Of a stretch of DNA of 16,648 nt, positions 1 through 15,302 are shown piece after piece; within the stretch, counting starts at the first letter, position 1, and each line of letters begins with the position of its first letter. Below the pieces are notes generated by a model. That model was given only the letters and a program-made list of their open reading frames with translations. It made no database searches and was not told the DNA's origin. Source of the stretch: Thermoflexales bacterium (lineage in GTDB: Bacteria > Chloroflexota > Anaerolineae > S140-20); contig WFUY01000311.1 in the NCBI GenBank assembly GCA_015484715.1, forward strand, positions 1 to 16,648, written 5' to 3'. Both the position numbers and the translations under genes were made by a program.

Positions 1-3000
1 ACGCTGCCGGTGCCAACCTGGCCGTCGCCTTCTTCTGGATCACTGTCCCGTTGGACGTGATCTCCTTTTGGCTGGTCCTCAGCTTCTTCCTCCATAGCTT
101 TCTCGTCTTCCCCGAAGAGGTGAGTTGGATCCGACGCCGCTCTTGGGTGGTGCCGACCATCCACCTGGTGAACCCCGTGGTCGCTGGCCTGGGGAGCTGG
201 CTGCTGGGCGGAGGAGAGGTCCTGCCCACCCGAGCCATTCTCTTCCGCCTCAGTTACCCCATCGGCGGGTTGATGCTCCTGATGGGAGTGGGGCGGCTCA
301 TCTACCTCTACCGGACCACCCATCGTCCTCTGGTGCGCACCCAGATCCGCTGGCTGGTCTGGGGGCTGGTGGTGGGAACGCTACCCTGGTTGCTCTTCTT
401 CAACCTCCCGATCATCCTTAGTGGGGAGCCTCTCCTTCCCTTGGGGCTGACCCTGGTGCCCCTCATCGCCATTCCCATCACCTTCACCTTCGCCGTGACC
501 CGCTACCGGCTGCTTTCCATTGATCGGCTCATCAACCGGAGCCTGGTCTACGGAGCGCTGAGCCTCGTCCTGGTCGTTTTCTACTTTGCCACCGTCGCCC
601 TCTTCAGCCGGATGGTGCAGATCGCGGCCGCCGGGGTGGAGGACACGACCATCGTCTTCTTCTCCACCTTGCTGGTCGCGCTTCTCTTCCTGCCGGCCCG
701 CCAGCGCATCCAGGCAGCCATTGACCGCACCTTCTACCGGCACAAGATCACCTTCCAGCAGGTGCCGGCCCAAGTTGGCCGGGAGCTGAGCACCACCCTC
801 GTCTTCGATCAACTGACCACCCTCCTGACGGAACGTCTCCCCCGGCAACTGGAGATCGCTGGCGCGGTCCTCTACATCCTCGACGAAGAGGCCTCCCGGT
901 TTATCCCTCACGGCTCCCTGACAGGGGAACCAATCCCCGCCCAGGCTCCCTTCCTCACCCCGCTGCGAGGGGGGAACAAGCCCCTCGTCTGGACGGGCGA
1001 GGAAGGGAAGGATGGCCTGTGGACTGTCGCCCCATCGGTAGCCCTCTGGCTGCCCCTCGTAGGGCGGGGCGGGCTCATCGGCCTCTATGGGCTGGGGGTC
1101 AAGGAGTCGGGGGACCTCTACACCGATGAGGAGATCGAGTCTTTGCGCCTCCTGAGCCACCAGATCGCCATCGCTGTGGAGAACGCCCGCCTCTACCGCC
1201 AGGTGGAGGCTTACAGCAAAGGGCTGGAAGCCCAGGTCCAGGAGCGCACCCAGGCCCTGGAGGCGGCCAACCAGGCCCTCTGCCAGGAGAAGAGCAAGCT
1301 GGACGCGGTGATCCACAACATTGCCGACGGCCTGGTCGTAACCGATTCTGCCGGGCACATCCTCCTGACCAACCCGGTCTTCCAGCGGATGGTGGGCCAG
1401 CCAGCGACGTGGCTTCGGGGGCAGTCCTTGGCCGATCTCCCCTTTGACGAAGGGCTGGTCATGGTCGTCGCCCAGGCGCTGGAGGAGGTCGGTCAGGTCT
1501 TCACCACCGACGTTCAGGCAGCCAAGCGCATCTATCGGGCCTCGGCCACCGCCCTCCAGACCGATGGACGGGCCACCGGCGTCGTCACCGTGCTGCGGGA
1601 CGTCACCCACGAGGTGGAGGTGGACCGGATGAAGACCGACTTCATTTCCACCGTCTCCCACGAGCTGCGCACCCCCCTCACCTCTGTCCTGGGATTCGCC
1701 CGCCTCATCCGCAAGGCTTTCGAGCGGGAGATCGTCCCGGTCCTGCCGGAGGTACGCCAGGTCCAACGGGCCAAGAAACGGATCCTGGACAACCTGACCA
1801 TCATCGAGAGCGAGAGCCAGCGGCTCACCCGCCTCATCAACGACGTGCTGGACATCGCCAAGATGGAAGCAGGGCGGATGGAGTGGCATATGGAGGAGAC
1901 CGACCTGGGCGAGGTGATCCGACAGGCCATCGCCGCCACCACCGCCCTGGCCGGCGAGAAAGGGCTGCCCATCCAGGTTGACTTTCCCGCGGAGGGGCTG
2001 CCCCCCGTCTGGGGAGATCGAGACCGACTGATCCAGGTGATGACCAACCTGCTCTCCAACGCCATCAAGTTCACCGAGCGGGGCCGGATCGAGGTGCGCG
2101 GCGAGGTGATCCCGGCAGAGGCCGCGGCCACCCTGCGATCAGGAGACGCTCCCCTGCCACCGGGGGAATGGGTAGCGGTCCATGTGGCCGACACCGGCGT
2201 GGGCATCCGGGCCGAGGACTTGCCCCACGTCTTCGAAAAGTTCCGCCAGGTGGGGAACGCGCTGACCAACCGCCCCCGGGGCACCGGGTTGGGGCTCTCC
2301 ATTTGCAAGGAGATCGTTGAGCACCACGGAGGTCGGATCTGGGTCGAGAGCCAGGTAGGGGTGGGCAGTACTTTCTCCTTTGTACTGCCGCTGACCGGGA
2401 CAGGGGCTGTGCCGGAATCCCCGGCCGAGCCCAAGCTGACCCCGCTGGTGGAGATCCGACGACGAGTCGAAGCTCAGCTTCCCCTGCCCCCATCGGGGAC
2501 GAAGACGATCCTGGTGGCCGACGACGAGGCCAACATCCGCGAACTGCTCCGGCAGGAGTTGGCCGAGGCCGGCTACCGGGTCATCGAGGCCGCCGATGGG
2601 CCGGAGGCGCTGGAGAAGGCCCGTCGGGAGCGGCCCGACCTGATCATCCTGGACGTGATGATGCCCGGTGTCTCCGGCTTCGACGTCACCAGCGTGCTCA
2701 AAGCCGACGAGCAGACCCAGGAGATTCCCATCCTCATCCTCTCCATCATCGAGGATCGGGAGCGGGGGCTGCGACTGGGAGCCGACGCCTACCTGACCAA
2801 GCCGGTCGAGGTGGATGCCCTGTTGACGACCATCGCCCGCCTCCTGGCGAAGGACCAGGGTCCCATCCGACGCAAGGTCCTGGTCATTGACCGAGACCAG
2901 TCGGCGGTGGAAGCCATCACCCGCACGCTGCGGGAACGCGGCTACGAGGTCGTCGAGGCTTACGACCCACGCGGGGCGATCCTGAAGGCCCGGCGGGAGA

Positions 3001-3215
3001 AACCGGACTTGGTCATCCTGGACGCGATGATCTCCCAAATGAACGACTACGAAGTGCTCAAGGCGCTGCGTTATCAGGACCGGGAGGGACGGACCTGCGT
3101 CATCGTCCTGGCGGGGGAGGTCTCGCCCCAGCAGGAGGCCGAAGCTCGGCGGCAGGGGGCCGATGACGTGGCGCGGCGGGAAGACCTGCCCGACCTGCTG
3201 GATGAAGGTCGGTAA
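1..3215 (+). CDS. Membrane hybrid histidine kinase with GAF, PAS and two receiver domains (5' end cut by window)
   Basis: Sensor kinase that autophosphorylates on His and passes phosphate to attached receiver domains. The frame is open from base 3 with hydrophobic codons, so the gene starts outside the window; TTG at 51 is only the first in-frame start-like codon and has no Shine-Dalgarno. Numbering from that TTG: about six hydrophobic segments within residues 1-215, GAF about 245-385, coiled-coil linker about 385-415, PAS about 412-525, HisKA with H537 in SHELRTP, and HATPase with N-box N666/N670, G1 box DTGVGI (714-719) and G2 box GTGLGLS (744-750). REC1 (about 818-935) has D824/D825, phospho-acceptor D868 and K917. 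REC2 (about 940-1054) keeps D991 but has R948 in the acidic pair, A1021 for Ser/Thr and R1043 for the conserved Lys, so it is probably non-canonical. The HisKA helix-helix loop is longer than usual. The ligand is unknown. The cyclase gene follows after 13 bases, so co-transcription is likely. Confidence 0.93.
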   Translation, partial: AAGANLAVAFFWITVPLDVISFWLVLSFFLHSFLVFPEEVSWIRRRSWVVPTIHLVNPVVAGLGSWLLGGGEVLPTRAILFRLSYPIGGLMLLMGVGRLIYLYRTTHRPLVRTQIRWLVWGLVVGTLPWLLFFNLPIILSGEPLLPLGLTLVPLIAIPITFTFAVTRYRLLSIDRLINRSLVYGALSLVLVVFYFATVALFSRMVQIAAAGVEDTTIVFFSTLLVALLFLPARQRIQAAIDRTFYRHKITFQQVPAQVGRELSTTLVFDQLTTLLTERLPRQLEIAGAVLYILDEEASRFIPHGSLTGEPIPAQAPFLTPLRGGNKPLVWTGEEGKDGLWTVAPSVALWLPLVGRGGLIGLYGLGVKESGDLYTDEEIESLRLLSHQIAIAVENARLYRQVEAYSKGLEAQVQERTQALEAANQALCQEKSKLDAVIHNIADGLVVTDSAGHILLTNPVFQRMVGQPATWLRGQSLADLPFDEGLVMVVAQALEEVGQVFTTDVQAAKRIYRASATALQTDGRATGVVTVLRDVTHEVEVDRMKTDFISTVSHELRTPLTSVLGFARLIRKAFEREIVPVLPEVRQVQRAKKRILDNLTIIESESQRLTRLINDVLDIAKMEAGRMEWHMEETDLGEVIRQAIAATTALAGEKGLPIQVDFPAEGLPPVWGDRDRLIQVMTNLLSNAIKFTERGRIEVRGEVIPAEAAATLRSGDAPLPPGEWVAVHVADTGVGIRAEDLPHVFEKFRQVGNALTNRPRGTGLGLSICKEIVEHHGGRIWVESQVGVGSTFSFVLPLTGTGAVPESPAEPKLTPLVEIRRRVEAQLPLPPSGTKTILVADDEANIRELLRQELAEAGYRVIEAADGPEALEKARRERPDLIILDVMMPGVSGFDVTSVLKADEQTQEIPILILSIIEDRERGLRLGADAYLTKPVEVDALLTTIARLLAKDQGPIRRKVLVIDRDQSAVEAITRTLRERGYEVVEAYDPRGAILKARREKPDLVILDAMISQMNDYEVLKALRYQDREGRTCVIVLAGEVSPQQEAEARRQGADDVARREDLPDLLDEGR

Positions 3216-3228
3216 AGGGTGAGGTAAG

Positions 3229-5118
3229 GTGGAAGAGAAGATCCGACTGCGAAGACTCCTCCCTTCCAAACAGGTTGCAGCACTGCTGGCCGACTTCGCG
3301 CCCCTTCTGGGCACGGATGTCGCCCTGGTGGTGACCGACCAGGATGGTCGGCCGCTGGGGAGCCATCTCACCTTCCCGTCCGAGGCCATCCGGCTTCTGC
3401 GGGAAGCGGTCCACGAAGCGGCGGAGATCGTGATCACCCCTCAGGGGGCCCTCACCCCCCTCCGGGCCGAGGGCTGTGAGGTGGGGTGGGTTCTGGCGCT
3501 CGGCCCCCTCCCCCCGGCCTCGCGGACGCGGGCTCTACTAAAGGCGTTGCGCCAGGCTCTAGAGATCTTGATCGGTGTCGCTTTGGAGAAGCGGGCCCTG
3601 GCTCGAGAGACGTTGGACCGCTACCGGGAGATCAACCTGCTCTACAACCTGGGGGAGACGCTGGCCACCTGTATGGGGGTGCAGGAGCTCCTCCAGCGGG
3701 TGCTGACCCAGGCCAGCCAGATCATCCAGGCCCGGCGGGGAGCCGTCCTGCTCTATGACGAGGAGGGCCGGCTGACCGTCGCGGCCAGCACCGGTTTGGA
3801 GGCAGGCGGAACGCTGGCCCAGGAGGGGCGAGCGCTGGCGGAGGAGGTGGCTCGCACGGGCAAGCCCCAGATCATCAACGACTTCACCAACGGCGAAGGG
3901 CGGGTCCCTCTCCTGGCCGTTCCGATGCGCACCTCGGAACGGCGGCTGGGAGCCATCCTCCTGGCCGACAAGGCGGATGGGGCGATCTTCACGGCGGGGG
4001 ATGAGAAGCTGCTGGCCGCCTTAGCCTGGCAGGCAGCTATCTTTCTGGAAAATGCCCGCCTCTTCGAGAACGTGCGTCGGCAGCGGGACGAGATCGCCAC
4101 GATGAAGCGCTACATGGATAACATCTTCGCCAGCATCGCCAGCGGCGTCATCACCACCGATACTCAGGATGTCATCACCACCTTCAACCGGGCTGCCGAA
4201 ACCATCCTGCGCGTCCCCGCCCACGAAGCGGTCAACCGCCCCTACCGTCAGGTGCTCGGTTTCTTGCGCGACACCCCGCTTCCCACCCTCATCGAGGAGG
4301 TCCGTCGGCACTGCAAGAGCCGCATTGCCCAGGAGATCACCTCTCGGCTTCCTCAGGGGGAGCAGCTTCACCTGAGTCTGAACCTCTCCACCCTTCGGGG
4401 GAGCAACGGGGAGACGCTGGGCGTGGCCATCGTGTTGGACGACGTGACGGAGAAGCGGCGCTACGAGCGGGAGCGGGCCTTGGTCCGCCGCTACCTGCCG
4501 CCTGAACTGGTAGACCGGCTGCCCGATGACCTGGCCGAGCTGGGGCTGCGGGGTGAGCGGCGGGTCATCACCGTCCTCTTCGCCGACATCCGGGGCTTCA
4601 CCAGCTTCAGCGAGGTGAACCCGCCTGAGCGCGTCGTCGAAGTGATCAACAACTACCTGGCCCTGGCCGAGGGGGCGGTCCGCTACCATCGGGGCATCGT
4701 GGACAAGTACATGGGGGACGCCGTGATGGCCCTCTTTAACACCCCTCTCTTGGAAGAGCAGGAGCATGCTTGGCGGGCGGTGCAGGCAGCTTGGGGCCTG
4801 CAGGAGGCCGTGGCGGCCTACCATCAGCGCGTCCCGCCGGAGGAACGGCTCTTTATGGGCATTGGGATCTGCACCGGCGAAGCGGTCGTGGGCAATGTAG
4901 GAACGGAAGACCGGATGGAGTACACGGCCATCGGGGACACGGTCAACGTGGCCAAGCGGCTGCAGGAGAACGCCCGTCCGGGGCAGGTGCTCCTGGGTCG
5001 GACGACGTGGGAGGCGGTGCGAGACCGGGTGCGGGTGAAAGCACTGCCCGCTGTGCGGGTCAAGGGTCGGCAGACGGTCACGCAGATCTACGAACTGGTC
5101 GGTCTCGTGGGGGAATAA
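3229..5118 (+). CDS. GAF-PAS sensor class III adenylate/guanylate cyclase
   Basis: Predicted soluble nucleotide cyclase making cAMP (or cGMP) from ATP/GTP. The GTG start at 3229 follows a GAGG-type Shine-Dalgarno. Residues 1-125 are an unrecognised N-terminal sensory region, 132-275 look like GAF, 293-410 like PAS (a DDVTEKR-type PAC end at 404-410), and 440-625 form the cyclase homology domain. Metal-binding Asp residues are D453 (FADIRGFT) and D497 (DKYMGD), the purine-contacting Lys is K493, and the transition-state pair N573/R577 lies in TVNVAKRL. The second purine-selecting position, Asp in classic adenylate cyclases, is T566 (EYTAIGD), as in class IIIb enzymes, several of which respond to bicarbonate. 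All catalytic residues are present in one chain, so a homodimer should be active. No membrane segment is visible, so it is likely cytosolic. It lies 13 bases after the hybrid kinase, suggesting a joint signalling operon. Substrate preference is an inference. Confidence 0.93.
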   Translation: MEEKIRLRRLLPSKQVAALLADFAPLLGTDVALVVTDQDGRPLGSHLTFPSEAIRLLREAVHEAAEIVITPQGALTPLRAEGCEVGWVLALGPLPPASRTRALLKALRQALEILIGVALEKRALARETLDRYREINLLYNLGETLATCMGVQELLQRVLTQASQIIQARRGAVLLYDEEGRLTVAASTGLEAGGTLAQEGRALAEEVARTGKPQIINDFTNGEGRVPLLAVPMRTSERRLGAILLADKADGAIFTAGDEKLLAALAWQAAIFLENARLFENVRRQRDEIATMKRYMDNIFASIASGVITTDTQDVITTFNRAAETILRVPAHEAVNRPYRQVLGFLRDTPLPTLIEEVRRHCKSRIAQEITSRLPQGEQLHLSLNLSTLRGSNGETLGVAIVLDDVTEKRRYERERALVRRYLPPELVDRLPDDLAELGLRGERRVITVLFADIRGFTSFSEVNPPERVVEVINNYLALAEGAVRYHRGIVDKYMGDAVMALFNTPLLEEQEHAWRAVQAAWGLQEAVAAYHQRVPPEERLFMGIGICTGEAVVGNVGTEDRMEYTAIGDTVNVAKRLQENARPGQVLLGRTTWEAVRDRVRVKALPAVRVKGRQTVTQIYELVGLVGE

Positions 5119-5182
5119 ATCTCAGAACATCCCCGGGCAGAACCACCCAGCGCTGTACTTCCTTGCACAAACAAGCGCAAAC

Positions 5183-5206
5183 AAAAAGGGGGGCCGTCGG
5201 CCCCCC
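5183..5206 (-). terminator. Intrinsic terminator of the Hsp20 gene
   Basis: A perfect 8-bp stem (GGGGGGCC at 5188-5195 with GGCCCCCC at 5199-5206) has a 3-base loop. On the minus strand it is followed directly by TTTTT and then a T-rich stretch, and it lies 24 bases past the Hsp20 stop codon. On the plus strand the hairpin is followed by AAATCGG, so it is not a good terminator for the cyclase gene. Confidence 0.9.
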
Positions 5207-5229
5207 AAATCGGTGCCCATCAACGGGAC

Positions 5230-5688
5230 CTACTTGGCCTTCACCTTGATCTGCTTGGGCCTGACCTCTTCCACCTTGGGGAGGGTCAGCGTCAGCACAC
5301 CGTTCTCGAACAGGGCCTCAGCCTTGTCTGCGTTGATGGGCACCGGCAACGACAGAGAGCGCTGGAAGGTGCCGTGGCGTCGCTCACGCAGGTGGTAGGA
5401 GCCCTTCTTGCCCTCGAACTCGTCCTTGATCTCACCCCGGATGGTCAGCACATCGCCCGAAACCTGGATCTCCACATCGTCAGGCCGCACACCCGGCACA
5501 ACCGCCTTCACGATAATCGCGTCATCGGTCTCGTACACGTCCATCGGCAGGTAGAGCTGGGTGCGGCCATCGCCGGTGCCGAACCACTCCCGGAAGGGCC
5601 AGACGAAGCTTTCCTCGAAGAGCCGATCCATGGCCTCGCGCAAGGTCATGACCTCCCGCATAGGATCCCACCGCATCAGCTCAGCCAT
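5230..5688 (-). CDS. Small heat shock protein, Hsp20/alpha-crystallin family
   Basis: ATP-independent holdase chaperone, 152 residues, expected to form cytosolic oligomers that bind unfolding proteins. The alpha-crystallin domain covers about residues 45-138, with PMDVYETDD at its start, the LTIRGE strand, the ERRHGTFQRSLSLP segment (102-115) and the family hallmark ENGVLTLTLPK (128-138). The C-terminal tail carries an I-x-V anchor (I147, V149) used in oligomer assembly. A GTG at 5697 would extend the frame by three codons, but it overlaps the ribosome-binding site. The ATG at 5688 sits 7 bases after a strong GGAGGT, so I chose it. The gene is monocistronic with its own terminator and is convergent with the cyclase gene. 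Upstream repeats may be its operator. Confidence 0.95.
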   Translation of the reverse strand: MAELMRWDPMREVMTLREAMDRLFEESFVWPFREWFGTGDGRTQLYLPMDVYETDDAIIVKAVVPGVRPDDVEIQVSGDVLTIRGEIKDEFEGKKGSYHLRERRHGTFQRSLSLPVPINADKAEALFENGVLTLTLPKVEEVRPKQIKVKAK

Positions 5689-5739
5689 GCGTCTCACCTC
5701 CCTTCTCTGCAGGTTTCTTTCCGGTACAATCCGGCCTCC

Positions 5740-5782
5740 ATGATAGCCACGTCGTGTTAGATGAACGCTAACAAAACGCTAA
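5740..5782 (-). promoter_or_regulatory. Candidate Hsp20 promoter/operator with phased AACGCTAA repeats
   Basis: Two identical copies of AACGCTAA (5764-5771 and 5775-5782) start exactly 11 bases apart, about one helical turn, and are flanked by partial inverted copies (GTTAG at 5756-5760, CGTTAG at 5788-5793). A TATCAT -10-like hexamer reads on the minus strand from 5745 to 5740, about 52 bases before the Hsp20 start. There is no good -35, which would fit activator dependence. This is not a CIRCE element. The assignment is inference from position and repetition. Confidence 0.45.
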
Positions 5783-5844
5783 AAATTCGTTAGACTCGGG
5801 AGTTGCGAGCCTGCATTCCGCATACCATCTCGATGGGGGCTTTC

Positions 5845-5912
5845 TTCACCGCAGAGCCGCCGAGGGCGCAGAGGGATTTCTGGGGTCTCTCGGCGTCCTC
5901 CGTGCCTTTGTG
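5845..5912. repeat. Dispersed palindromic repeat-like element (CGCAGAG type)
   Basis: TTCACCGCAGAG opens the element. CGCAGAG occurs twice (5850-5856 and 5867-5873, 17 bases apart), and CGCCGAG at 5858-5864 pairs perfectly with CTCGGCG at 5889-5895. From memory, sequences of the type TTCACCGCAGAG...CTCTGCG...GGTGAA are frequent non-coding repeats in Chloroflexota, Planctomycetes and similar genomes. Here the right arm is diverged, so this looks like an old copy. Family membership is inferred; only the pairing is seen directly. Confidence 0.5.
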
Positions 5913-5966
5913 TTAGAGAGAGCGCCGTCGAGCAGGCCAACACGATAGGGGGGAGCTGCCTATGCC

Positions 5967-5999
5967 GGGGAATCACCGAGGAATGCGCGGTGATTCCCC
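5967..5999. repeat. Perfect 12-bp inverted repeat
   Basis: GGGGAATCACCG (5967-5978) is the exact reverse complement of CGGTGATTCCCC (5988-5999), with a 9-base loop. No T-run follows on either strand, so it is not a standard terminator. The left arm plus loop resembles the sequence at 6125-6146 upstream of the ATPase promoter, so it may be part of a repeat family. Confidence 0.75.
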
Positions 6000-6029
6000 A
6001 CAAGTGAGCGAGAGAGTGGTCCGCAGCAG

Positions 6030-6106
6030 GCCGTCCACGAATTTCTCACCAATGCACGAATGAGGCGGTCCTTAATTCGTGTATTCGTGCCCCATTCGTG
6101 GACGGC
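6030..6106. repeat. Nested inverted-repeat element built from ATTCGTG units
   Basis: GCCGTCCACGAAT (6030-6042) pairs perfectly over 13 bp with ATTCGTGGACGGC (6094-6106). Inside it, GCACGAAT (6054-6061) pairs with ATTCGTGC (6083-6090). The unit ATTCGTG occurs three times on the right side (6075, 6083 and 6094) and its complement CACGAAT twice on the left (6036, 6055). It would fold into a long interrupted hairpin. It has no coding potential and most resembles a dispersed intergenic palindromic repeat or miniature element. Confidence 0.75.
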
Positions 6107-6122
6107 TAGTCACCCTATCTCC

Positions 6123-6135
6123 ATGGGTAATCACC
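6123..6135 (+). repeat. Left copy of a 13-base direct repeat flanking the AAA/DUF4276 module
   Basis: ATGGGTAATCACC lies 105 bases before the ATPase start. It matches 12 of 13 bases of ATGGGTAATCGCC at 8218-8230, after the second gene. It may mark an insertion boundary or may be just one more member of the local repeat family. Confidence 0.5.
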
Positions 6136-6148
6136 ACAGGAATGCGGG

Positions 6149-6177
6149 TTGCGAAGCGTGGTTAGCTAAGGTATAAT
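6149..6177 (+). promoter_or_regulatory. Sigma-70-type promoter of the AAA ATPase/DUF4276 operon
   Basis: TTGCGA (6149-6154, 4 of 6 consensus bases) and a perfect TATAAT (6172-6177) are separated by the optimal 17 bases. The predicted start of transcription lies near 6184, about 44 bases before the ATPase ATG. The ribosome-binding site (a GAGAG run just before the ATG at 6228) is weak. Confidence 0.8.
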
Positions 6178-6227
6178 GACGTCGGGAATCGTAGGCCAAT
6201 CGTTGGCAACCAAAAGAGAGACGACAT

Positions 6228-7514
6228 ATGATCCGGCGGGTGAGAGTCCGAGGGTACAAGTCGCTCAAAGAGATTGAGGTAAAGCTTCGACCGTTGACCG
6301 TTTTCATCGGTCCAAATGCTGCCGGCAAAAGCAACCTCTTCGACGCGCTGGGGCTGCTGAGCCGATCTGTGACTTCCCGGAATCTGGCCGAAGCGTTTAA
6401 GGAGCATCGCGGTGCCCCCTTGGAGGCTTTCTACTACGGTGATCAGGGGCTGAAGGGGCTCCTTGCACGACCTACTGTAGAGTTCACCATCGAAGTGGAT
6501 GTCGAACTCTCGTCTGAGGTCGTTCGGGCTGTTGAGCAGCGCATCCAGGATATGCGGGAGGGGCTGCCAGAAGACGGAAACACATCGGGGCCATCCCGGC
6601 GTCGGGTCACCGAGCCGTTGCTGCGGTACACGCTGACCGTGCAGATGGCTGTGGAGTCGGGGTATCTGCGGGTGATGGAGGAACAATTGGTTGCCCTAAC
6701 CCGCGATGGGAGGGTCAAAGCTTCCCGACGAGCATTCATCGAGCCCGTAAAAGGCCGTCTCCGACTCCGGTTGGAAGGACAGGCCCGGCCAACGGAATAC
6801 GAAGTTGGCCTGGATTACACGCTGGTCTCGATGCCTCTCTATCCACCTCACTATCCTCATATCACGGCCTTTCGAGAAGAACTCTCCCGCTGGCGTTTCT
6901 ACTACTTCGACCCAAAGACTATGCGGGCGGAGGTGCCTCTCAAAGAGGTTGAGAACCTGGGAGCCTTTGGGGCTGACCTGGCCGCTTTCTACAGCACTTT
7001 GAAGTCGCGGCACCCTCGGCAGTTCGAGGCTTTGAACCGGGCCCTCCGCTCTCTGCTGCCCGATGTCCAGCGTCTGGATGTCGAGCGTACCGATGAAGGG
7101 TTTCTGCGCCTACAGGTCTTCGAGAGAGGAGTTCCCTTCTCGGCTCGCATCATCTCCGAAGGCACTCTCCGTATCCTGGGGCTGTTGGCCATCACCAACC
7201 CCCTGTCACCGACAACGGTCATCGGATACGAGGAACCGGAGAATGGGGTTCATCCCCGGCGTCTCCAGCTTATCGCCGATCTGCTCAAGAACGCCTCCGA
7301 GACCGGAAAACAGGTCCTGGTCAATACCCACTCGCCTAAATTGCCTACCTACTTTGATCCCCAGGCTCTCATTGTCTGTCGCAAAGAGGGGGGTAAAACT
7401 TCTTTTCTCCCCCTTTTGGACTTGGGACCTGTGTTCCAACCAGCGCTTATTGAACAAGCCCTGGCCGAGACCCCGCTGTCGGAGCGGATCTTGAGGGGGG
7501 ATTTCGGTGGATGA
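6228..7514 (+). CDS. OLD/RecF-like AAA family ATPase (AAA_15/AAA_21 type), possible defence sensor
   Basis: ABC-type ATPase of the SMC/RecF/OLD superfamily, 428 residues. It has Walker A GPNAAGKS (28-35), an ABC-signature-like ISEGT (309-313), Walker B VIGYEEPENG (331-340) with catalytic E336 followed by PENGVHP, and an H-loop His at H368 (NTHSP). Residues about 50-300 form the insert between the two ATPase halves, without a recognised domain; no zinc hook, long coiled coil or C-terminal TOPRIM nuclease is fused. The nuclease-like function is instead supplied by the next gene, which overlaps by 8 bases. In known families, such ATPases paired with a TOPRIM partner (for example AriA/AriB of PARIS) act in phage defence. 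Local GC is lower than in flanking genes (31 of 60 bases at 6241-6300 against 41 of 60 at 12421-12480), consistent with acquisition by transfer. The ATPase fold is certain; the defence role is inferred. Confidence 0.93.
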   Translation: MIRRVRVRGYKSLKEIEVKLRPLTVFIGPNAAGKSNLFDALGLLSRSVTSRNLAEAFKEHRGAPLEAFYYGDQGLKGLLARPTVEFTIEVDVELSSEVVRAVEQRIQDMREGLPEDGNTSGPSRRRVTEPLLRYTLTVQMAVESGYLRVMEEQLVALTRDGRVKASRRAFIEPVKGRLRLRLEGQARPTEYEVGLDYTLVSMPLYPPHYPHITAFREELSRWRFYYFDPKTMRAEVPLKEVENLGAFGADLAAFYSTLKSRHPRQFEALNRALRSLLPDVQRLDVERTDEGFLRLQVFERGVPFSARIISEGTLRILGLLAITNPLSPTTVIGYEEPENGVHPRRLQLIADLLKNASETGKQVLVNTHSPKLPTYFDPQALIVCRKEGGKTSFLPLLDLGPVFQPALIEQALAETPLSERILRGDFGG

Positions 7515-8133
7515 AATTCGCATCGGATACTTCTTGGAGGATATAGGCCAGGAGCAGTTTCTGCGAACTTTGGTGGAGCGGGTCGCCCAAGAAGTTGGGA
7601 TCGCCTCCCAACAGCTTCGCCACGAAGTGCGAAATGCCACCGGAGGGCGAGGCAAGGTGCTGGACGAACTGCGGCGGTTCTTACGCGATGTCGGTCGTGA
7701 GCGCGAGAGTCCCTTTCCCTTGCTGATTGTCGCCATAGATGGCAACTGCAAGGGGTACCAGGAAAGGCGGAACGAAATCCACGCCATCGTCGAACGGAGT
7801 GGCTACAGAGGACGGGTAATCTGCGCCGTGCCCGATCCCCACATCGAGCGATGGTATTTGGTGGCCCCACGCACGCTTCAGCGGGTGTTGGGGGTCTCGG
7901 TCACTCCCGGCGTGCCTCCCTACAAATGCGAACGTGGCCGCTACAAACGGGCGCTCCGCGAGGCCATCCGGCAAGCAGGCATAATAGCGCCTCTGGGAGG
8001 CATCGAATACGGCCCTGACGTTGCAAGGGCTCTCGACTTGTACACTGTTGGTCGAGCCGATCCGGGATTCAAGCACTTCGTGGATGAACTGCGAGAGGGG
8101 TTGTCCCCTTTCGTGCGATCCCAGGACCCTTGA
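7507..8133 (+). CDS. TOPRIM-like DUF4276 family protein, partner of the AAA ATPase
   Basis: 208 residues resembling the DUF4276 family. The N-terminal strand GYFLED followed by QFL fits the TOPRIM pattern (E-G-x-x-x-x-x-F-L), with E11 as the catalytic Glu. A D-x-N motif (D78, N80 in AIDGNCKG) stands where TOPRIM folds have D-x-D. The family hallmark PDPHIERWYL (109-118, with E114 and W116) is clear. The GTG start overlaps the last 8 bases of the ATPase gene and has a GAGGGGGG ribosome-binding site inside it, which implies translational coupling and a fixed ratio of the two products. If it works like PARIS AriB, the ATPase would hold it until infection triggers release and nucleic-acid cleavage. 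That is inference; DUF4276 proteins are not all shown to be nucleases. It ends in a palindromic element. Confidence 0.85.
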   Translation: MDEIRIGYFLEDIGQEQFLRTLVERVAQEVGIASQQLRHEVRNATGGRGKVLDELRRFLRDVGRERESPFPLLIVAIDGNCKGYQERRNEIHAIVERSGYRGRVICAVPDPHIERWYLVAPRTLQRVLGVSVTPGVPPYKCERGRYKRALREAIRQAGIIAPLGGIEYGPDVARALDLYTVGRADPGFKHFVDELREGLSPFVRSQDP

Positions 8134-8135
8134 TA

Positions 8136-8226
8136 ATTACCCATATATGCGGGATACTTCGCGGTCCTCGGTGTAGAGATGCAACTGGAGTTGCATCCTG
8201 CTCAGCTGGGGAGACTTATGGGTAAT
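8136..8226. repeat. 91-base element with 10-bp terminal inverted repeats
   Basis: ATTACCCATA (8136-8145) is the exact reverse complement of TATGGGTAAT (8217-8226). The element begins just after the TGA of the DUF4276 gene and encloses a second perfect hairpin at 8178-8197. It is too small to encode a transposase and looks like a miniature palindromic element. The right arm contributes to the 13-base direct repeat that also lies before the ATPase promoter. Confidence 0.65.
8178..8197. repeat. Perfect 9-bp hairpin inside the 91-base element
   Basis: GATGCAACT (8178-8186) and AGTTGCATC (8189-8197) are perfect reverse complements separated only by GG. No T-run follows on either side, so it is unlikely to be a rho-independent terminator. 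As RNA, a 7-bp stem with a larger loop would be the realistic fold. Confidence 0.7.
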
Positions 8227-8230
8227 CGCC
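8218..8230 (+). repeat. Right copy of the 13-base direct repeat flanking the AAA/DUF4276 module
   Basis: ATGGGTAATCGCC differs from the left copy at 6123-6135 in one base. It lies 13 bases before the -35 box of the rsmD promoter, so the two-gene module and its promoter are exactly bracketed by the pair. Confidence 0.5.
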
Positions 8231-8242
8231 GACGTGCAACCG

Positions 8243-8270
8243 TTGACGGTTAGGCGAAAGGCCGTACAAT
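8243..8270 (+). promoter_or_regulatory. Strong promoter of rsmD, giving a nearly leaderless mRNA
   Basis: TTGACG (8243-8248, 5 of 6) and TACAAT (8265-8270, 5 of 6) are separated by 16 bases. Transcription should begin around 8276-8278, only 3-5 bases before the ATG at 8281. No Shine-Dalgarno precedes the ATG, which agrees with leaderless or near-leaderless translation. Confidence 0.8.
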
Positions 8271-8280
8271 ACGTAGCGCT

Positions 8281-8844
8281 ATGGTCCGTGTCATCGCCGG
8301 CACAGCCAAAGGACGAAAACTGCGGGTGCCTTCCGAAGGGGTCCGCCCCATCACCGACCGGGCCAAGACCGCCCTCTTCAGCATCCTGGGGCCGGCCGTG
8401 ATCGGTGCCCGCGTCCTGGACCTCTTCGCCGGGGCCGGGAGTGTGGGGATCGAGGCCCTCAGCCGAGGAGCCGCCCAGGTCGTCTTCGTGGAGCGCGACC
8501 CCACAGCGGTCCAGGCCATCCGCTGGAACCTGCGCCACACCGGCCTGTTGGAACGAAGCCGGGTGGTACGCAAGGATGTCTTCAAGTTCCTGGCCGGAGA
8601 GCCGGAACCCTTCGACCTCATTTACATCGCCCCTCCCCAGTACCGAGGGCTTTGGGCCGATACACTGCAGGCCCTGGACGCCCGGCCTGACTGGCTGGCC
8701 GAAGAGGGTCAGATCATCGTTCAAATCCACCCTCGCGAATACGAGCCCTTGCCCCTACAGCGGCTCTCCCTCTGCGACCAGCGGACCTACGGGGGGGTGA
8801 TGCTCTGCTTCTACGAACGGAGTGGAGTCCTCGTCGAGAGCTAA
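8281..8844 (+). CDS. rsmD: 16S rRNA (guanine-N2)-methyltransferase RsmD (m2G966)
   Basis: SAM-dependent methyltransferase that modifies G966 (E. coli numbering) of 16S rRNA during small-subunit assembly; 187 residues, the normal family length. Family marks are RVIAGTAKGRKL (3-14), VRPITDRAKTALFSIL (21-36), the SAM-binding motif I LDLFAGAGSVGIEAL (46-60) and the acidic end of strand 2 in FVERD (69-73). Motif IV, normally (D/N)PP(Y/F), reads APPQY (117-121): the Asp is replaced by Ala and a Gln is inserted before the Tyr. I believe this variant also occurs in other Chloroflexota RsmD proteins, but I cannot check. The start is fixed by the promoter 11 bases upstream. coaD, the frequent neighbour of rsmD, is not next to it here. 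Confidence 0.93.
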   Translation: MVRVIAGTAKGRKLRVPSEGVRPITDRAKTALFSILGPAVIGARVLDLFAGAGSVGIEALSRGAAQVVFVERDPTAVQAIRWNLRHTGLLERSRVVRKDVFKFLAGEPEPFDLIYIAPPQYRGLWADTLQALDARPDWLAEEGQIIVQIHPREYEPLPLQRLSLCDQRTYGGVMLCFYERSGVLVES

Positions 8845-8978
8845 GTGAGGCTTCCATCCTTCTACGGGCAAAACCGTCTCTTTGCTAACCCTTCCGCCTC
8901 TTCATACCCACCCTTGGGCGAGCCGCCATCGTCCCCCTCATTGAACGCCCCGCTCGTGAAGATATACACACATCTCTA

Positions 8979-9004
8979 TGTCAAAAGTGACAACTGTCAT
9001 ATGA
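8979..9004. promoter_or_regulatory. Candidate operator upstream of the CODH/ACS operon (TGTCA/TGACA half-sites)
   Basis: Three half-sites alternate: TGTCA (8979-8983), TGACA (8988-8992) and TGTCA (8995-8999), followed by the palindrome TCATATGA (8997-9004). The first two form a perfect 14-base dyad with a 4-base spacer, the size of an FNR-type site. The half-site sequence recalls the CO sensor CooA (TGTCR-N6-YGACA), but the spacer is 4, not 6. It is centred 60-75 bases before the predicted transcription start. The binding protein is unknown; it may also be a remnant of a palindromic repeat. Confidence 0.4.
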
Positions 9005-9023
9005 AATGAATGGCAACGATTAC

Positions 9024-9052
9024 TTGACTTTTCTCGGTCTTCCGGGGATGAT
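9024..9052 (+). promoter_or_regulatory. Candidate promoter of the CODH/ACS operon
   Basis: TTGACT (9024-9029, 5 of 6) and GATGAT (9047-9052, 4 of 6) are 17 bases apart, giving a leader of about 64 bases before the ATG at 9123. A second, weaker candidate lies upstream: TTGAAC (8941-8946) with TATACA (8963-8968), spacer 16. In that case the dyad at 8979 would sit just after the transcription start, as a repressor site would. Confidence 0.5.
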
Positions 9053-9122
9053 GTCCCCAAGGGATTGAAGAAGTTTTTGCCGTAATCTGTTCCTAAAAGG
9101 CACCAACAGGGGAGGGATGCCT

Positions 9123-9533
9123 ATGGCCACGTTGACCCTTGAGGTCCCGTTGATGTACGGTGACCATCACGTTACCGAGGTGAGGCGGCTCCTGCTGAGC
9201 TTGCCCGGCGTAGAGGATGTCTACGCCAGCAGCTGTTTCCACATCGTCGAGGTCCAGTACGACGAAGCTCAGGTGAGTCCTGAGGAGATCGAGGCCCGGC
9301 TGGGGGAAGCCGGCTATCTGGGAGAGTTGCCGGTGCCCGTCGAGGCCGGGGCCGTCCACGGGAATGGACAGGGGGACGGCCCGAAGCCCTCGTATCGCCA
9401 CACGACCGCCTATGAGCAGACCCGGCAGGTGATCAGCTTCGCCCAGCGCGTGCCCTATCGGGGACGCCCCCTGTGGCCCTGTCCCGGGATGGGGGTTCTG
9501 CGCAACGTAGAACTAGAAGAAGAAGGGAGGTGA
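9123..9533 (+). CDS. Small HMA-fold (ferredoxin-like) protein lacking the CxxC motif, leader gene of the CODH/ACS operon
   Basis: 136 residues. Residues 2-66 fit the beta-alpha-beta-beta-alpha-beta HMA fold of copper chaperones: TLTLEV, the loop, helix TEVRRLLLSLPGV, strands EDVYAS and HIVEVQYD, and helix SPEEIEARLGEAGY. Where such proteins have M-x-C-x-x-C, this one has MYGDHH (11-16), so both Cys are lost and H15/H16 stand in the loop. Residues 67-88 are a Gly-rich linker. The tail (90-136) contains a Cys in WPCPGMG (C120) and matches nothing I recognise. Of two ATGs (9117, 9123), 9123 has the proper 7-base distance from GGGGAGG. The stop lies 3 bases before the acsA ATG, and the acsA ribosome-binding site is inside this gene, implying coupled translation. 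A role in nickel delivery or assembly for AcsA/AcsB is possible but only inferred from position. Confidence 0.8.
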   Translation: MATLTLEVPLMYGDHHVTEVRRLLLSLPGVEDVYASSCFHIVEVQYDEAQVSPEEIEARLGEAGYLGELPVPVEAGAVHGNGQGDGPKPSYRHTTAYEQTRQVISFAQRVPYRGRPLWPCPGMGVLRNVELEEEGR

Positions 9534-9536
9534 CCG

Positions 9537-11552
9537 ATGGCCCGGAAGAAGCGCAGCCTCGAAGAGTTCAGCGCCGATCCTGCCGCTCAGGAGATGCTGG
9601 TACGTGCCGAGGAGATGGGGGTCTCGACGGCCTTCCATCGGGCCGATGCCCTCGCCCCCTGTAACATCGGGGCCGCCGGCATGTGTTGCAGCAACTGCGG
9701 CATGGGGCCTTGCCGGCTGACCAAGGATGGGCTGACCGGCGTCTGCGGCGCGACCATTGACACCATCCAAGCCCGTAACCTGGTCCGGGCCATCGCCGTG
9801 GGATCGGCGGCCCATTCGGACCACGGACGTGATATGGCCTTCACCCTCAAGGCGGTCGCCAACGGGGAGGCGGAAGGCTACGTGATCCGCGACGTGCCCA
9901 AGCTCCGCACCCTGGCCGCCCGTTACGGCATCCCCATCGAGGGGCGCTCCCCCGAAGAGATCGCCAACGACCTGGCCGACCTCTACATCGCCCAGTTCGG
10001 TCAGCAGGATGGCCAGGTGGTCCCCATTATCCGTGCGCCGGAGAAGCGTCAGAAGCTCTGGAAGAAGCTGGGCGTCATCCCCCGAGGTATTGACCGGGAG
10101 GTCGTCGAAGCGCTGCACCGCACCCATATCGGCGACGACCAGGATGCCGAGCACCTCCTGCACCACGCCATCCGCACCGCCCTCAGCGACGGCTGGGGAG
10201 GTAGCATGATCGCCACCGATGTCTCCGACATCCTCTTCGGGACGCCGGCCCCCCTCCTCGGACGGGCCAACCTGGGCGTCCTGCGGGAGGATATGGTCAA
10301 CGTCATCGTCCACGGCCACGAGCCAACCCTGAGCGAGATGATCGTCGCCGCCTCTCAAGACCCGGAGATCATCGAGTACGCCCGGGCCGCCGGGGCCAAA
10401 GGGGTCAACCTGGCCGGCATTTGCTGCACCGCCAATGAGATCCTGATGCGCCAGGGCGTCCCGGCCGCCGGAAACTTCCTGCACCAGGAGTTGGTCATCC
10501 TCACCGGTGCCGTCGAGGCTATGGTGGTGGACGTCCAGTGCATCATGCAGGCCCTCGTCGGCCTGGCCCAGAACTTCCACACCCTGATCATCACCACCTC
10601 CCCCAAGGTGAAGATCAAGGACGCGGTCCACATCGAGTTCGACGAGCACCAGGCTCTCACCATCGCCAAGGAGATCCTGCGCCGCGCCATTGACAACTTC
10701 AAGAACCGGGGCGAGGTCCACATCCCGGCGGCCCAATCGGAGCTAATCCCCGGCTTCTCCCACGAGTACATCAACTATATGCTGGGTGGGAGCTACCGCG
10801 CCTCCTTCCGCCCCCTCAACGACGCCATCATGGCCGGGCGCATCCGGGGTGTGGCGGCCATCGTGGGGTGCAACAACCCCCGCAGCACCCAGGACTACCT
10901 GCACTCCTACGTGACCCAAGAGCTTCTCAAGCAGGATGTGCTGATCGTGGAGACGGGGTGCGGGGCCATCGCCACCGCCAAGTTGGGCCTTATGCTCGGA
11001 GAGGCCGGCCTGGATCAGGTCGGGCCGGGCCTGCGCGAAATCTGCGAGACCGTCGGCATCCCACCGGTGCTCCACATGGGCTCCTGTGTGGACAATAGCC
11101 GCATCCTCACCGTGCTCACCCAAATGGTCGAGGAGGGCGGTCTGGGTGACGACATTGACCAGATTCCGGCGGTGGGGCTGGCTCCCGAGTGGATGAGCGA
11201 GAAGGCCCTCTCCATTGGTGCCTATTGCGTCGCATCCGGCGTCTACGTCATCTTCGGCGGGAGTTCGCCGGTGAGCGGGATGCCCGATCGGGTCTCTGAC
11301 AGCGACCTGGTCTCCCGCTACATCAGCGAGGGATGGGAGAAGCTCTACGGCGGCAAGCTGGAGTTCATCCCCGACCCCGAGGAGATGGTTCGCAAGACGC
11401 TGGAGCACATTGACAAGAAGCGTGCGGCCTTGGGGCTGCCGGAGTACGATCCCAGCCGCTTTGGCCGCAGCGGCGATGCCCGCATCCTGGAACTGGAGAA
11501 ACTCCCGTTGCCGGAGCGTCGGGAAGCGCTTTACGGTGTACCGGTGCGCTAG
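9537..11552 (+). CDS. acsA: Anaerobic Ni-containing carbon monoxide dehydrogenase catalytic subunit (CODH/ACS alpha partner)
   Basis: Catalyses CO2 + 2e- + 2H+ = CO + H2O; in the CODH/ACS complex the CO tunnels to AcsB. 671 residues, the family's usual size, cytosolic. The D-cluster ligands are C42 and C50; the B-cluster ligands C51, C54, C59 and C70 lie in the Cys-rich segment 42-70. The Ni-Fe-S C-cluster ligands are H261 (HGHEP), C296 (GICCTANE), C335, C445 (VGCNNPR), C475 (ETGCGA) and C517 (MGSCVDN). Likely acid-base residues are H93 (AAHSDHGRD) and K556 (SEKALSIG). Nothing essential is missing. GGGAGG lies 6 bases before the ATG. The gene sits between the HMA-like gene (3-base gap) and acsB (28-base gap) on one strand, so it belongs to the Wood-Ljungdahl operon rather than to a stand-alone CO-oxidising unit. 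cooS is an equivalent name. Confidence 0.97.
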   Translation: MARKKRSLEEFSADPAAQEMLVRAEEMGVSTAFHRADALAPCNIGAAGMCCSNCGMGPCRLTKDGLTGVCGATIDTIQARNLVRAIAVGSAAHSDHGRDMAFTLKAVANGEAEGYVIRDVPKLRTLAARYGIPIEGRSPEEIANDLADLYIAQFGQQDGQVVPIIRAPEKRQKLWKKLGVIPRGIDREVVEALHRTHIGDDQDAEHLLHHAIRTALSDGWGGSMIATDVSDILFGTPAPLLGRANLGVLREDMVNVIVHGHEPTLSEMIVAASQDPEIIEYARAAGAKGVNLAGICCTANEILMRQGVPAAGNFLHQELVILTGAVEAMVVDVQCIMQALVGLAQNFHTLIITTSPKVKIKDAVHIEFDEHQALTIAKEILRRAIDNFKNRGEVHIPAAQSELIPGFSHEYINYMLGGSYRASFRPLNDAIMAGRIRGVAAIVGCNNPRSTQDYLHSYVTQELLKQDVLIVETGCGAIATAKLGLMLGEAGLDQVGPGLREICETVGIPPVLHMGSCVDNSRILTVLTQMVEEGGLGDDIDQIPAVGLAPEWMSEKALSIGAYCVASGVYVIFGGSSPVSGMPDRVSDSDLVSRYISEGWEKLYGGKLEFIPDPEEMVRKTLEHIDKKRAALGLPEYDPSRFGRSGDARILELEKLPLPERREALYGVPVR

Positions 11553-11580
11553 AAGAGGAAGAGCAGGAGGAGGTAGCCCT

Positions 11581-13869
11581 ATGTCTCGTTACATCGCCAC
11601 CCGCGCCATCCGTGGCGCGCACGCTCTGGTCACAGAAGCCGAACTGATGCTCCAAAAGGCCCTGGCCGAGAAGGGGCCGGAGACTCCGGTCGCCTTTCCC
11701 AACACGGCTTACTACCTCCCCGTGATCTACGGCATGACCGGCATTCCCGTCGAGAAGCTGGGCCAACTGGAGCCGGTGCTCCAACACGCGCGCGCTCTGC
11801 TGCATCCCCTCCCCTCGGAGAAGCGATGGACGCCCTATCTGGGCGAAACCCTGGATTGCGGCATGGCGACGCTGCTGGCCGCCGAGGCCATCGAAGCCAT
11901 CCGTTTCGTCTACGGGCTGCAGCCGGAACCGATGCCCGGCTTCCGGCTGGCCGGTGGTACCGCCTTCACCAGTCCCGACAACGGGGCCGGCGGCGAGAGC
12001 CTGGACGGTCATCTCAACGGTCCCATTGACGACATCCAGTTGCGCACGTGGGGGATCCAGTTGGTGGACGGGCGGATGCCGGGCTTCGCTGCCATCATCG
12101 GCGCGGCCAAGTCCAACGAGGTCGCCGTGAAGATCGTGCGCGAGCTCCAGCAACGGAATATCCTCTGTTTTCTCGCCGGCAACGTCAACGGGCGGAGCAT
12201 CATCCACCAGTTGATCGAGGAAGGGGTCGAGCTGGGCTACGACACCTACACTGTCCCCTTTGGCACAGACACCATCAGCGCCATCTACGCCTTGGGCTTC
12301 GCCGTCCGCTCAGCCCTCACCTTCGGCGGCCTCAAGGGCGGCCAGGCCCGGGAGATCCTGCTCTACAACAAGGACCGCGTCTTCGCCTTCGTCCTGGCCC
12401 TGGGCGAGGTGGACGACCTGAAGTACGCCGCCGCCGCCGGCGCCATCAACTTCGGTTTCCCCGTCATCGCCGACACCGTCATCCCCGAGATCCTGCCCAC
12501 GGGCGTCACCACCTATGAGCACGTGGTCAGCATGCCCTTCAACGAGATCGAGGGCAAGGACGACTTGGAGCGGGCCGAGCGGCTGGTGCAGAAGTGCATC
12601 GAAGTGCGCGGCGTCAAGATCAAGGTCACCAAAGTGCCCGTCCCCGTCCCCTACGGCTCCGCCTTCGAGGGCGAGGTCGTGCGGCGGGCCGACATGCGGA
12701 TCGAGTTCGGCGGCAAGTACTCCCGCGCCTTCGAGTACCTCTACATGGCTCCTCTCAACGAGGTGGTGGACGGGCGCGTCGAGGTCGTCGGACCCGGCTT
12801 CGAGGAGGTCCCCGAACAGGGCCACATGGACCTGGGCATCGTGGTCAAGGTGGCCGGCCGGGGGATGCAGGAGGACTTCGAGCCGGTGCTGGAACGCCAG
12901 ATCCACTACTTCATCAACGGGGCCTCCGGCGTCCAGCACATCGGCCAGCGTGACATCGCTTGGATCCGCATCTCCAAGGCGGCGGCGGAGAAGGGCTTCA
13001 ACCTGGAGCACCTGGGCAAGATCCTACACGCCCGCTTCCACGCCGACTTCGGGGCCATCGTGGACAAAGTCGAGGTGACCATCTTCACCGATCCCGACCG
13101 GATCGAGGAGTGGCTGCGGGAGGCCCGCAAAGCCTACGACCGACGCAACAAGCGGCTGGCCGACCTGACCGACGAATCGGTCAACGAGTTTTACTCCTGC
13201 ACCCTCTGCCAGTCCTTCGCCCCCAACCACGTCTGCGTCATCAGCCCCCAACGGCTAGGACTCTGCGGGGCCTACAACTGGCTGGACTGCAAGGCCTCCT
13301 ACAACATCAACCCCACCGGCCCCAACCAGCCCATCAAGCTGGGCACCTGCATTGACCCGGTGAAAGGGTACTGGACGGGGATCAACGAGTACGCCCGCAT
13401 TGCCTCCCACGGCACCGTTGAAGAGGTGGCGATGTACTCGATTATGGAAAACCCGATGACCGCCTGCGGCTGCTTCGAGTGCATCGTCATGCTCATCCCC
13501 GAGGCAAACGGCGTGATGGTGGTCAGCCGGGAGGACTCCAGCATGACGCCGGCGGGCATGACCTTCAGCACCCTGGCCGGGATGGTCGGCGGCGGCATCC
13601 AGACCCCCGGCGTGATGGGCGTGGGCAAGTACTACCTGCTCAGCCCCAAGTTCATCTCCGCCGACGGCGGCTTCAAGCGGGTGGTCTGGATGAGCAGCAT
13701 CCTCAAAGAGACGATGGCCGAGGAACTCCACGCCGTCGCCACCCGCGAGGGCGATCCTGAGCTGATCTCCCGCATCGCCGACGAACGCTACGCCGTCACC
13801 GTCGAGGAACTGCTGGCCTGGCTGGAGGAACACGACCATCCTGCCCTGGCTATGCCGCCTATCTTCTGA
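11581..13869 (+). CDS. acsB: CO-methylating acetyl-CoA synthase (ACS beta subunit)
   Basis: Condenses CO, the methyl group from the corrinoid protein and CoA into acetyl-CoA at the Ni-Ni-[4Fe-4S] A-cluster, and can run in reverse. 762 residues from the ATG, which has a strong AGGAGGAGG ribosome-binding site; the frame stays open upstream inside acsA, but no other start is as good. The cubane ligands are C540, C543, C552 and C562, and the distal-Ni motif Cys-Gly-Cys is 629-631. Spacings (3, 9, 10 and 67 residues) equal those I recall for Moorella thermoacetica AcsB (506/509/518/528/595). The A-cluster is shifted by 34 residues compared with that 729-residue protein, so the extra length lies in the N-terminal, CODH-contacting part. 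Order and spacing put it in one operon with acsA. The next acs gene follows only after a 434-base structured gap. Confidence 0.97.
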   Translation: MSRYIATRAIRGAHALVTEAELMLQKALAEKGPETPVAFPNTAYYLPVIYGMTGIPVEKLGQLEPVLQHARALLHPLPSEKRWTPYLGETLDCGMATLLAAEAIEAIRFVYGLQPEPMPGFRLAGGTAFTSPDNGAGGESLDGHLNGPIDDIQLRTWGIQLVDGRMPGFAAIIGAAKSNEVAVKIVRELQQRNILCFLAGNVNGRSIIHQLIEEGVELGYDTYTVPFGTDTISAIYALGFAVRSALTFGGLKGGQAREILLYNKDRVFAFVLALGEVDDLKYAAAAGAINFGFPVIADTVIPEILPTGVTTYEHVVSMPFNEIEGKDDLERAERLVQKCIEVRGVKIKVTKVPVPVPYGSAFEGEVVRRADMRIEFGGKYSRAFEYLYMAPLNEVVDGRVEVVGPGFEEVPEQGHMDLGIVVKVAGRGMQEDFEPVLERQIHYFINGASGVQHIGQRDIAWIRISKAAAEKGFNLEHLGKILHARFHADFGAIVDKVEVTIFTDPDRIEEWLREARKAYDRRNKRLADLTDESVNEFYSCTLCQSFAPNHVCVISPQRLGLCGAYNWLDCKASYNINPTGPNQPIKLGTCIDPVKGYWTGINEYARIASHGTVEEVAMYSIMENPMTACGCFECIVMLIPEANGVMVVSREDSSMTPAGMTFSTLAGMVGGGIQTPGVMGVGKYYLLSPKFISADGGFKRVVWMSSILKETMAEELHAVATREGDPELISRIADERYAVTVEELLAWLEEHDHPALAMPPIF

Positions 13870-13968
13870 CAGACGCGCCGAGGGGTGGTCTCCCGCCGAG
13901 GCGTGCCATCGCTCCGCCACCTGTCGGACGTGGACCATAAGGCTGAACGGGGAAGCCCCCTTGACCTC

Positions 13969-13990
13969 GGCCGGAATGGGAATTCCGGCC
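13969..13990. repeat. Perfect 9-bp stem with GGGA loop after acsB
   Basis: GGCCGGAAT (13969-13977) and ATTCCGGCC (13982-13990) are exact reverse complements around GGGA. It lies 100 bases past the acsB stop. No U-tract follows, so simple intrinsic termination is unlikely; a stability or processing hairpin, or a palindromic repeat, is more plausible. Confidence 0.75.
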
Positions 13991-14056
13991 TGTGAGGCAG
14001 CTCGCCGGGTTGGGCTCCCTGGGCCTGTGGAACGTCCGGCCAGGATCGAGTGACCG

Positions 14057-14098
14057 ACGTCCCATGGGAGACCACCCGACGGAGAGGGTGGGGGACGT
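14057..14098 (+). repeat. Two-tier stem-loop between acsB and acsD
   Basis: An outer stem ACGTCCC (14057-14063) / GGGACGT (14092-14098) encloses an inner stem CCACCC (14072-14077) / GGGTGG (14086-14091). The right arms are contiguous, while the left arms are separated by 8 bases, giving an asymmetric bulge. It is followed by a pyrimidine-rich run (TCTCTTCCCTCCCC). It could act as a weak terminator, attenuator or processing site; this is inference. Confidence 0.6.
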
Positions 14099-14204
14099 TC
14101 TCTTCCCTCCCCGTCTGGGACGGCCCTCCTCTTCCCCTCTTCCAGGTTGAGGTGAGCTGCAATCCGTGAATTCGTTCGGGATTCGTTGACTGGATGCCGA
14201 TGGA

Positions 14205-14220
14205 GCGACCCGCAGGTCGC
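14205..14220. repeat. 6-bp hairpin with CGCA tetraloop before acsD
   Basis: GCGACC (14205-14210) pairs perfectly with GGTCGC (14215-14220) around CGCA, about 84 bases before the acsD start. It is the third hairpin in the gap. No function can be assigned from sequence. Confidence 0.5.
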
Positions 14221-14303
14221 CCGTAGGCGCGGAGCTTGGCCGGTGCTGTATCGCACCTCCAAGCCCATCCAGACGAGAGACCGGAAATACGCAGGAGTGA
14301 GCT

Positions 14304-15287: not shown

Positions 15288-15302
15288 TAAGGAGACAGCG
15301 CT

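Follow-up and report, generated by a model that had tools for sequence, protein, structure and literature searches.

What kind of system is encoded by two overlapping genes at positions 6228-8133 of contig WFUY01000311.1 from Thermoflexales bacterium, a member of Chloroflexota? The window analyzed here is this entire contig (16,648 bp), in which 11 genes were called; the source genome is 70.6% complete and consists of 588 contigs. The upstream gene encodes an ATPase and the downstream gene a DUF4276 protein, and a first-pass annotation had proposed the pair as a candidate for a poorly described, PARIS-like defence system. The reading that we favor, and consider fairly probable, is that of a divergent HEC-01-type defence module with split-OLD architecture, in which an ATPase sensor would gate a DUF4276 TOPRIM-like nuclease effector; the module is probably mobile. 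Defence is the probable role, and this part of the early proposal stands. Insofar as "poorly described" meant a system that has no name, it was not borne out, because PADLOC lists HEC-01 and NCBIfam knows the MAD3/MAD4 relatives of this kind.

The gene pair and its named relatives

The ATPase gene (6228-7514, forward strand, 428 amino acids), recognized from its open reading frame (ORF) and Pfam matches, encodes an ABC/SMC-head protein that is HEC-01A-, MAD3- and AriA-like. It matched AAA_21 (2.4e-28, 100.5 bits) and AAA_15 (1.2e-20, 74.9 bits) above the Pfam cut-offs and carries a Walker A motif (GPNAAGKSN, residues 28-36), SEGTLR (310-315), EEPENG (335-340) and H368, and no nuclease domain was found in it by Pfam scan. 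The DUF4276 gene (7507-8133, forward strand, GTG start, 208 amino acids) encodes a predicted TOPRIM-like nuclease related to HEC-01B and MAD4. The ORFs overlap by 8 nt (7507-7514), and the DUF4276 gene is probably translationally coupled to the ATPase gene upstream. ORFs and Pfam matches agree in this respect with the first-pass annotation, which had described an OLD/RecF-type ATPase without a fused nuclease overlapping a DUF4276 gene by 8 bases.

Scanning genome contigs yielded 45 loci with a homologous DUF4276 gene, spread over many phyla. By tblastn with 24 ATPase rows, each of the 45 has an ATPase relative on the same strand no more than 2 kb upstream. The match reached E<=1e-20 in 43 of them, the two weaker cases (L038 and L046) being truncated at a contig end; no ATPase relative was detected by tblastn downstream of DUF4276 in any of the 42 loci having sequence there. 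An 8-nt overlap of the two genes is available in 38 of the 45 loci. The distance matrices of the two proteins were strongly correlated (r = 0.87, 35 rows), a value that none of 1000 permutations equalled. The ATPase and DUF4276 genes are a conserved two-gene unit, and their pairing goes beyond chance.

Judging from model scores, HEC-01 (HEC, Hma-embedded candidate; PADLOC-DB 2.0) is the nearest named kind and MAD3-MAD4 the next. The likeness to HEC-01 lies in the HEC-01A-family ATPase (model PDLC04184: 6.5e-61, ATPase residues 1-372 against model positions 1-390 of 464), the DUF4276 partner and the relatives that stand beside HmaB and HmaC. The partner itself diverges: its best HEC-01B match reaches only 29 bits (1.9e-7; other models 7.9e-6 and 0.033), compared with 274 bits for another ATPase and DUF4276 pair in the same genome (contig C148, locus L129, 6711-8574; HEC-01A 3e-170, HEC-01B 2.4e-82). 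Because of this well-matching pair, the one in the window is the genome's second and more divergent one. No HmaA-, HmaB- or HmaC-type protein was found among the 11 called genes of the window by Pfam and NCBIfam models, and the pair, which stands alone in the window, is probably a divergent HEC-01 relative. A metal-binding "HMA" domain (PF00403) does occur at 9117-9533, but it has nothing to do with the Hma operon.

With MADS, the likeness is that both proteins match the respective models, MAD3 (NF047739: 3.9e-44, 151.5 bits) and MAD4 (NF047734: 2.8e-6, 27.6 bits), but these scores are far under the curated equivalog cut-offs of 420 and 160 bits. With PARIS (AriA-AriB; class 4 OLD), the pair shares gene order and layout, and its AAA_15 and AAA_21 scores exceed the thresholds of 32 and 27 bits that PMC9122126 gives for the PARIS ATPase; however, the AriA model was matched only at 1.2e-27, as compared with 6.5e-61 for HEC-01A. 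The partners also differ, AriB being DUF4435. No DUF4435 match was found in the DUF4276 protein at E<=0.001, and none in the host's own genome, as far as this 70.6% complete assembly extends. The layout is analogous to that of AriA/AriB with a different partner family, as first proposed. DUF4276 is far commoner in the host's class (102/346 genomes) than DUF4435 (6/150). OLD proteins of classes 1 and 2 (TsOLD, GajA) share the ATPase head and probably the TOPRIM-like fold, but in one fused protein, whereas the window has two separate genes and no helicase gene beside them. No paper turned up in a full-text literature search for DUF4276, in a collection lacking both the HEC preprint and the paper on MADS.

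The TOPRIM question in the DUF4276 protein

DUF4276 was the sole Pfam family matched by the downstream protein at E<=0.001 (7.3e-10, 39.8 bits; cut-off 30.2). Its motifs are E11, D78-G-N80, E114, PDPHIERWYL and KCERxRYK, so that E11, the D-x-N motif and IERWYL, all noticed in the first pass, are indeed present. TOPRIM nucleases have a catalytic Glu after strand 1 and a D-x-D motif after strand 3. In the predicted structure and the sequence rows, E11 and D78 appear to occupy such TOPRIM-like places, the second D of D-x-D being N80, and E114 probably does so too. None of 34 homologues varies at E11, D78 or E114. In a more diverse set of 42 rows, position 80 holds N 38 times and D three times, with a gap in the remaining row. 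Because patterns spanning the E11 and E114 stretches served to find the 45 loci, conservation of these two residues in the 42-row alignment is partly built in; the 34-row set is less affected.

The structure model has a predicted local distance difference test (pLDDT) score of 91, and the TOPRIM domains of OLD and PARIS proteins rank first in comparison with it, with middling Z scores of 7.0-7.9 and 8ux9_A as the second row. The effector fold of PARIS is probably shared by the DUF4276 protein. Foldseek gave no match at E<=0.001, and its first rows included a kinase, EF-Tu and lumazine synthases. Against solved structures by sequence, the protein alone matched only designed SAKe and construct proteins, the 34-row profile gave nothing at E<=10 among solved chains, and one DUF4435 protein (L160) found none either. 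Alignment by hhalign of the window's subfamily with OLD TOPRIM and DUF4435 profiles was weak; the DUF4435 match is collinear and by itself not significant. When the subfamily was compared directly by hhalign with 30 canonical DUF4276 rows, the alignment was just 15 columns long, although the Pfam DUF4276 model covers the whole protein of the pair. The model-based comparisons support a TOPRIM-like fold, though not decisively, and the expectation of such a fold in the first-pass annotation held to the extent that OLD and PARIS structures come first.

Spread, neighbours and flanking repeats

The pair has a patchy spread. The profile of the window's DUF4276 subfamily matched 27 of 346 genomes of the class, including the host's own (one, G195, only at 9e-5), and the wider DUF4276 family was matched in 102, 88 of them above the cut-off. 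The window's DUF4276 protein had a match in 9 of 60 genomes searched as relatives, the host's own counted, and the 59 others include none of the host's family. An rsmD query matched all 60, five of them weakly (E 3e-4 to 8e-8) and perhaps through other methyltransferases. The ATPase tree (40 rows) has two groups, each with support of 100/100, and an earlier 35-row tree gave the same two: the window's clade of 21 rows (15 Chloroflexota, the window and five of other phyla) and a sister clade of 19 rows from many phyla. Within its clade, L013 and L053 form a group with the window's ATPase, and L012 (80% identity) is adjacent. Horizontal transfer is suggested, though not proven, by changes of label along this tree. 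In genus g126, six genomes (L120-L125) share neighbours around the pair, and inheritance therefore looks vertical there. No relative was found in phage and plasmid records by tblastn with the DUF4276 protein, or in a scan of viral contigs.

Association with defence genes is clear among the relatives beside Hma. PMC8565338 names the Hma operon as a candidate defence system, and PMC12988326 (2026) describes several Hma-embedded candidates, including HEC-06, as antiviral, in a passage that leaves HEC-01 unnamed. Gene clustering over 57 compared pair loci showed two recurrent families among the neighbours, one of HmaC type (8 loci) and one of HmaB type (6 loci), all within the set of 45. When loci were scanned by PADLOC name, HmaC was found at L024, L032, L034, L038 and L046 and HmaB at L024, L032 and L034; 99 neighbours from 25 loci (a third batch, 99 of 104 listed genes) gave 7 HmaC and 5 HmaB matches. 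HmaB and HmaC genes flank the pair on one strand at L024, L032, L034 and L049, and at L046 HmaC is six genes away. Most HmaC-adjacent loci on the tree (L024, L034, L036, L044 and L049, the ATPases of L034 and L036 being identical) belong to the sister clade, and L038 and L046 are unplaced. L032, however, is at the base of the window's own clade.

Other members of that clade also have defence-type neighbours. Directly upstream of the pair are a type III methyltransferase gene (1035 bits) and a HEC-05-like gene at L020, and a DrmD-like helicase gene (3.7e-203) at L054; at L013 a single gene separates it from another HEC-01-type pair (HEC-01A 1.7e-150, HEC-01B 1.1e-68). At L020 (Anaerolinea metagenome-assembled genome (MAG), 294-7732), a 1018-amino-acid gene before the two neighbours has no PADLOC match at E<=1e-10; at L013 (isolate SJ583, a near relative), the two pairs (4749-6499 and 7633-9538) differ from each other and have an alcohol dehydrogenase gene between them; and at L024 (Limisphaera MAG, 6273-8243), an extra NsnB/AriA-like ATPase separates the pair from the HmaB-like gene.

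In the window, the pair sits between an HSP20 gene on the opposite strand and rsmD. Both of its genes have a lower GC content (0.58 and 0.60) than the nine neighbours (0.62-0.69), and GC at third codon positions (GC3) is 0.66 as compared with 0.78-0.91, in line with the lower local GC reported earlier. The promoter credited to the pair corresponds to a promoter-like site, TTGCGA-17-TATAAT (6149-6177, forward strand), 50 nt upstream of the ATPase start, which is a consensus match only; five such sites occur in 5700-8400, compared with 0.8 (sd 0.9) in shuffled sequences.

Repeats had been reported on both sides of the pair, which is correct for the upstream side. A miniature inverted-repeat transposable element (MITE)-like interspersed repeat of ~149 bp (5987-6135, no strand assigned) has inverted ends GGTGATTACCCAT, degenerate on the left, and the region ~5974-6151 belongs to a genome-wide repeat with at least 39 other copies at 86-97% identity, 40 of 138 candidates having been scored. 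Downstream, a 99-bp stretch (8132-8230, no strand assigned) that touches the DUF4276 stop codon resembles it at its ends (GATAATTACCCAT ... ATGGGTAATCGCC, similarly inverted), and neither its interior nor the downstream 147 bp has another copy in the genome. The ATGGGTAATCRCC inverted-repeat pattern occurs at 71 genome sites, compared with none for a reversed control, and a wider-spaced inverted-repeat pair on contig C261 contains no recognizable transposase. Two MITE-like elements flanking the pair, a pattern noticed after the fact, may reflect past movement. Upstream of the MITE, a purine-rich "CGCCGAGGGCGCAGAGGG"-type intergenic stretch (5845-5920) is covered by no other scored copy of the repeat.

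As stated at first, no metabolic link of the pair to its neighbours (HSP20, rsmD, CO dehydrogenase/acetyl-CoA synthase) is evident. The CO dehydrogenase/acetyl-CoA synthase genes (catalytic, alpha/beta, delta and gamma) lie downstream of the pair at 9537-16646 and suggest Wood-Ljungdahl metabolism. Neither Rfam RNAs nor tRNAs were found in the window.

A possible mechanism and its alternatives

In PARIS, according to PMC12409363, a hexamer of the ATPase holds three AriB and recognizes phage proteins, and tRNA is the target that AriB cleaves; neither of the two genes and neither active site is dispensable (PMC9122126). By analogy, the ATPase of the window may oligomerize and serve as sensor and gatekeeper, and the DUF4276 protein may be the nuclease effector, with a putative two-metal site of TOPRIM type formed by E11, D78 and probably E114. 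In an uninfected cell the effector would be held, or left inactive, by the ATPase. A phage trigger would then alter the state of the ATPase and free or position the nuclease, which might cut nucleic acid (tRNA or DNA), so that growth or phage replication would stop. For sensing, release and substrate, we infer these steps from PARIS logic.

The main gaps in the case for a divergent HEC-01-type defence module are the middling Z scores of the modeled fold and the thin defence context in the window's clade. Ordinary genes surround the pair in the window, L012, L014 and L015, and the counts show no clear defence-gene excess near pairs of the window's clade. For these counts, 110 of 142 listed genes from 21 loci taken as near the window's pair were compared with 110 of 152 control genes from 16 out of 20 random regions that had been picked by position, blind to their content. 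The neighbours matched 182 families and the controls 165; among the top 25 families listed, mad3 had 5 vs 2 matches, mad2 3 vs 2, and few others were repeated. The control sample includes type I restriction genes, and no family among its top 25 listed was matched by more than two of the 110 genes. The association with defence genes, which the first-pass annotation had put forward as a check, is clear for the Hma-adjacent relatives and visible at the four own-clade loci beside defence-type genes, but no clear excess emerges from these counts. Both the ordinary surroundings and the lack of a clear excess would suit a domesticated module, in which the Chloroflexota pair lacks, or has lost, an anti-phage role and would serve the host, for instance in DNA repair or chromosome maintenance. 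The neighbours common within g126 would fit as well, and a precedent is reported in PMC12796447, where the OLD-family ATPase Cran1 is linked to the cell cycle in Sulfolobales. Absence of the pair from most genomes of the class, its low GC3 and the own-clade loci L032, L020, L054 and L013 argue against such a role, which we regard as unlikely.

The strict coupling and order of the two genes could also be expected of a toxin-antitoxin-like addiction pair, whose ATPase merely neutralizes a constitutively toxic DUF4276 nuclease and senses no phage, and solved AriA chains have been deposited as "AriA antitoxin". However, deletion of either gene is non-toxic in the analogous PARIS, which excluded a toxin-antitoxin system there (PMC9122126), and the DUF4276 protein has no plasmid match; this explanation appears somewhat less likely still. 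Least probable is a true PARIS subtype, with the DUF4276 protein as an AriB that has diverged. The AAA_15/AAA_21 ATPase with a TOPRIM-like partner in the same order, the rank of 8ux9_A and the weak collinear DUF4435 profile match would agree with it, whereas that match lacks significance of its own, the Pfam scan detected no DUF4435, and the ATPase is much closer to HEC-01A than to AriA.

The HEC-01-type defence module remains the preferred explanation. A broader and more tentative idea, which we would rather doubt than accept at present, would add DUF4276 to the TOPRIM nuclease families and see in the mainly Chloroflexota clade a split-OLD class of its own. Such a class of ATPase-gated TOPRIM systems would be marked by a metal site of D-x-N type and by the signature PDPHIERWYL / KCERxRYK, could function without an Hma operon around it and would cut RNA (e.g., tRNA); HEC-01, MAD3-MAD4 and PARIS would then make up one superfamily of ATPase-controlled TOPRIM effectors. 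If a TOPRIM-like DUF4276 protein does act under an SMC-type ATPase, one mechanism would apply to both HEC-01 and MAD3-MAD4, and it would be testable at E11 and D78.
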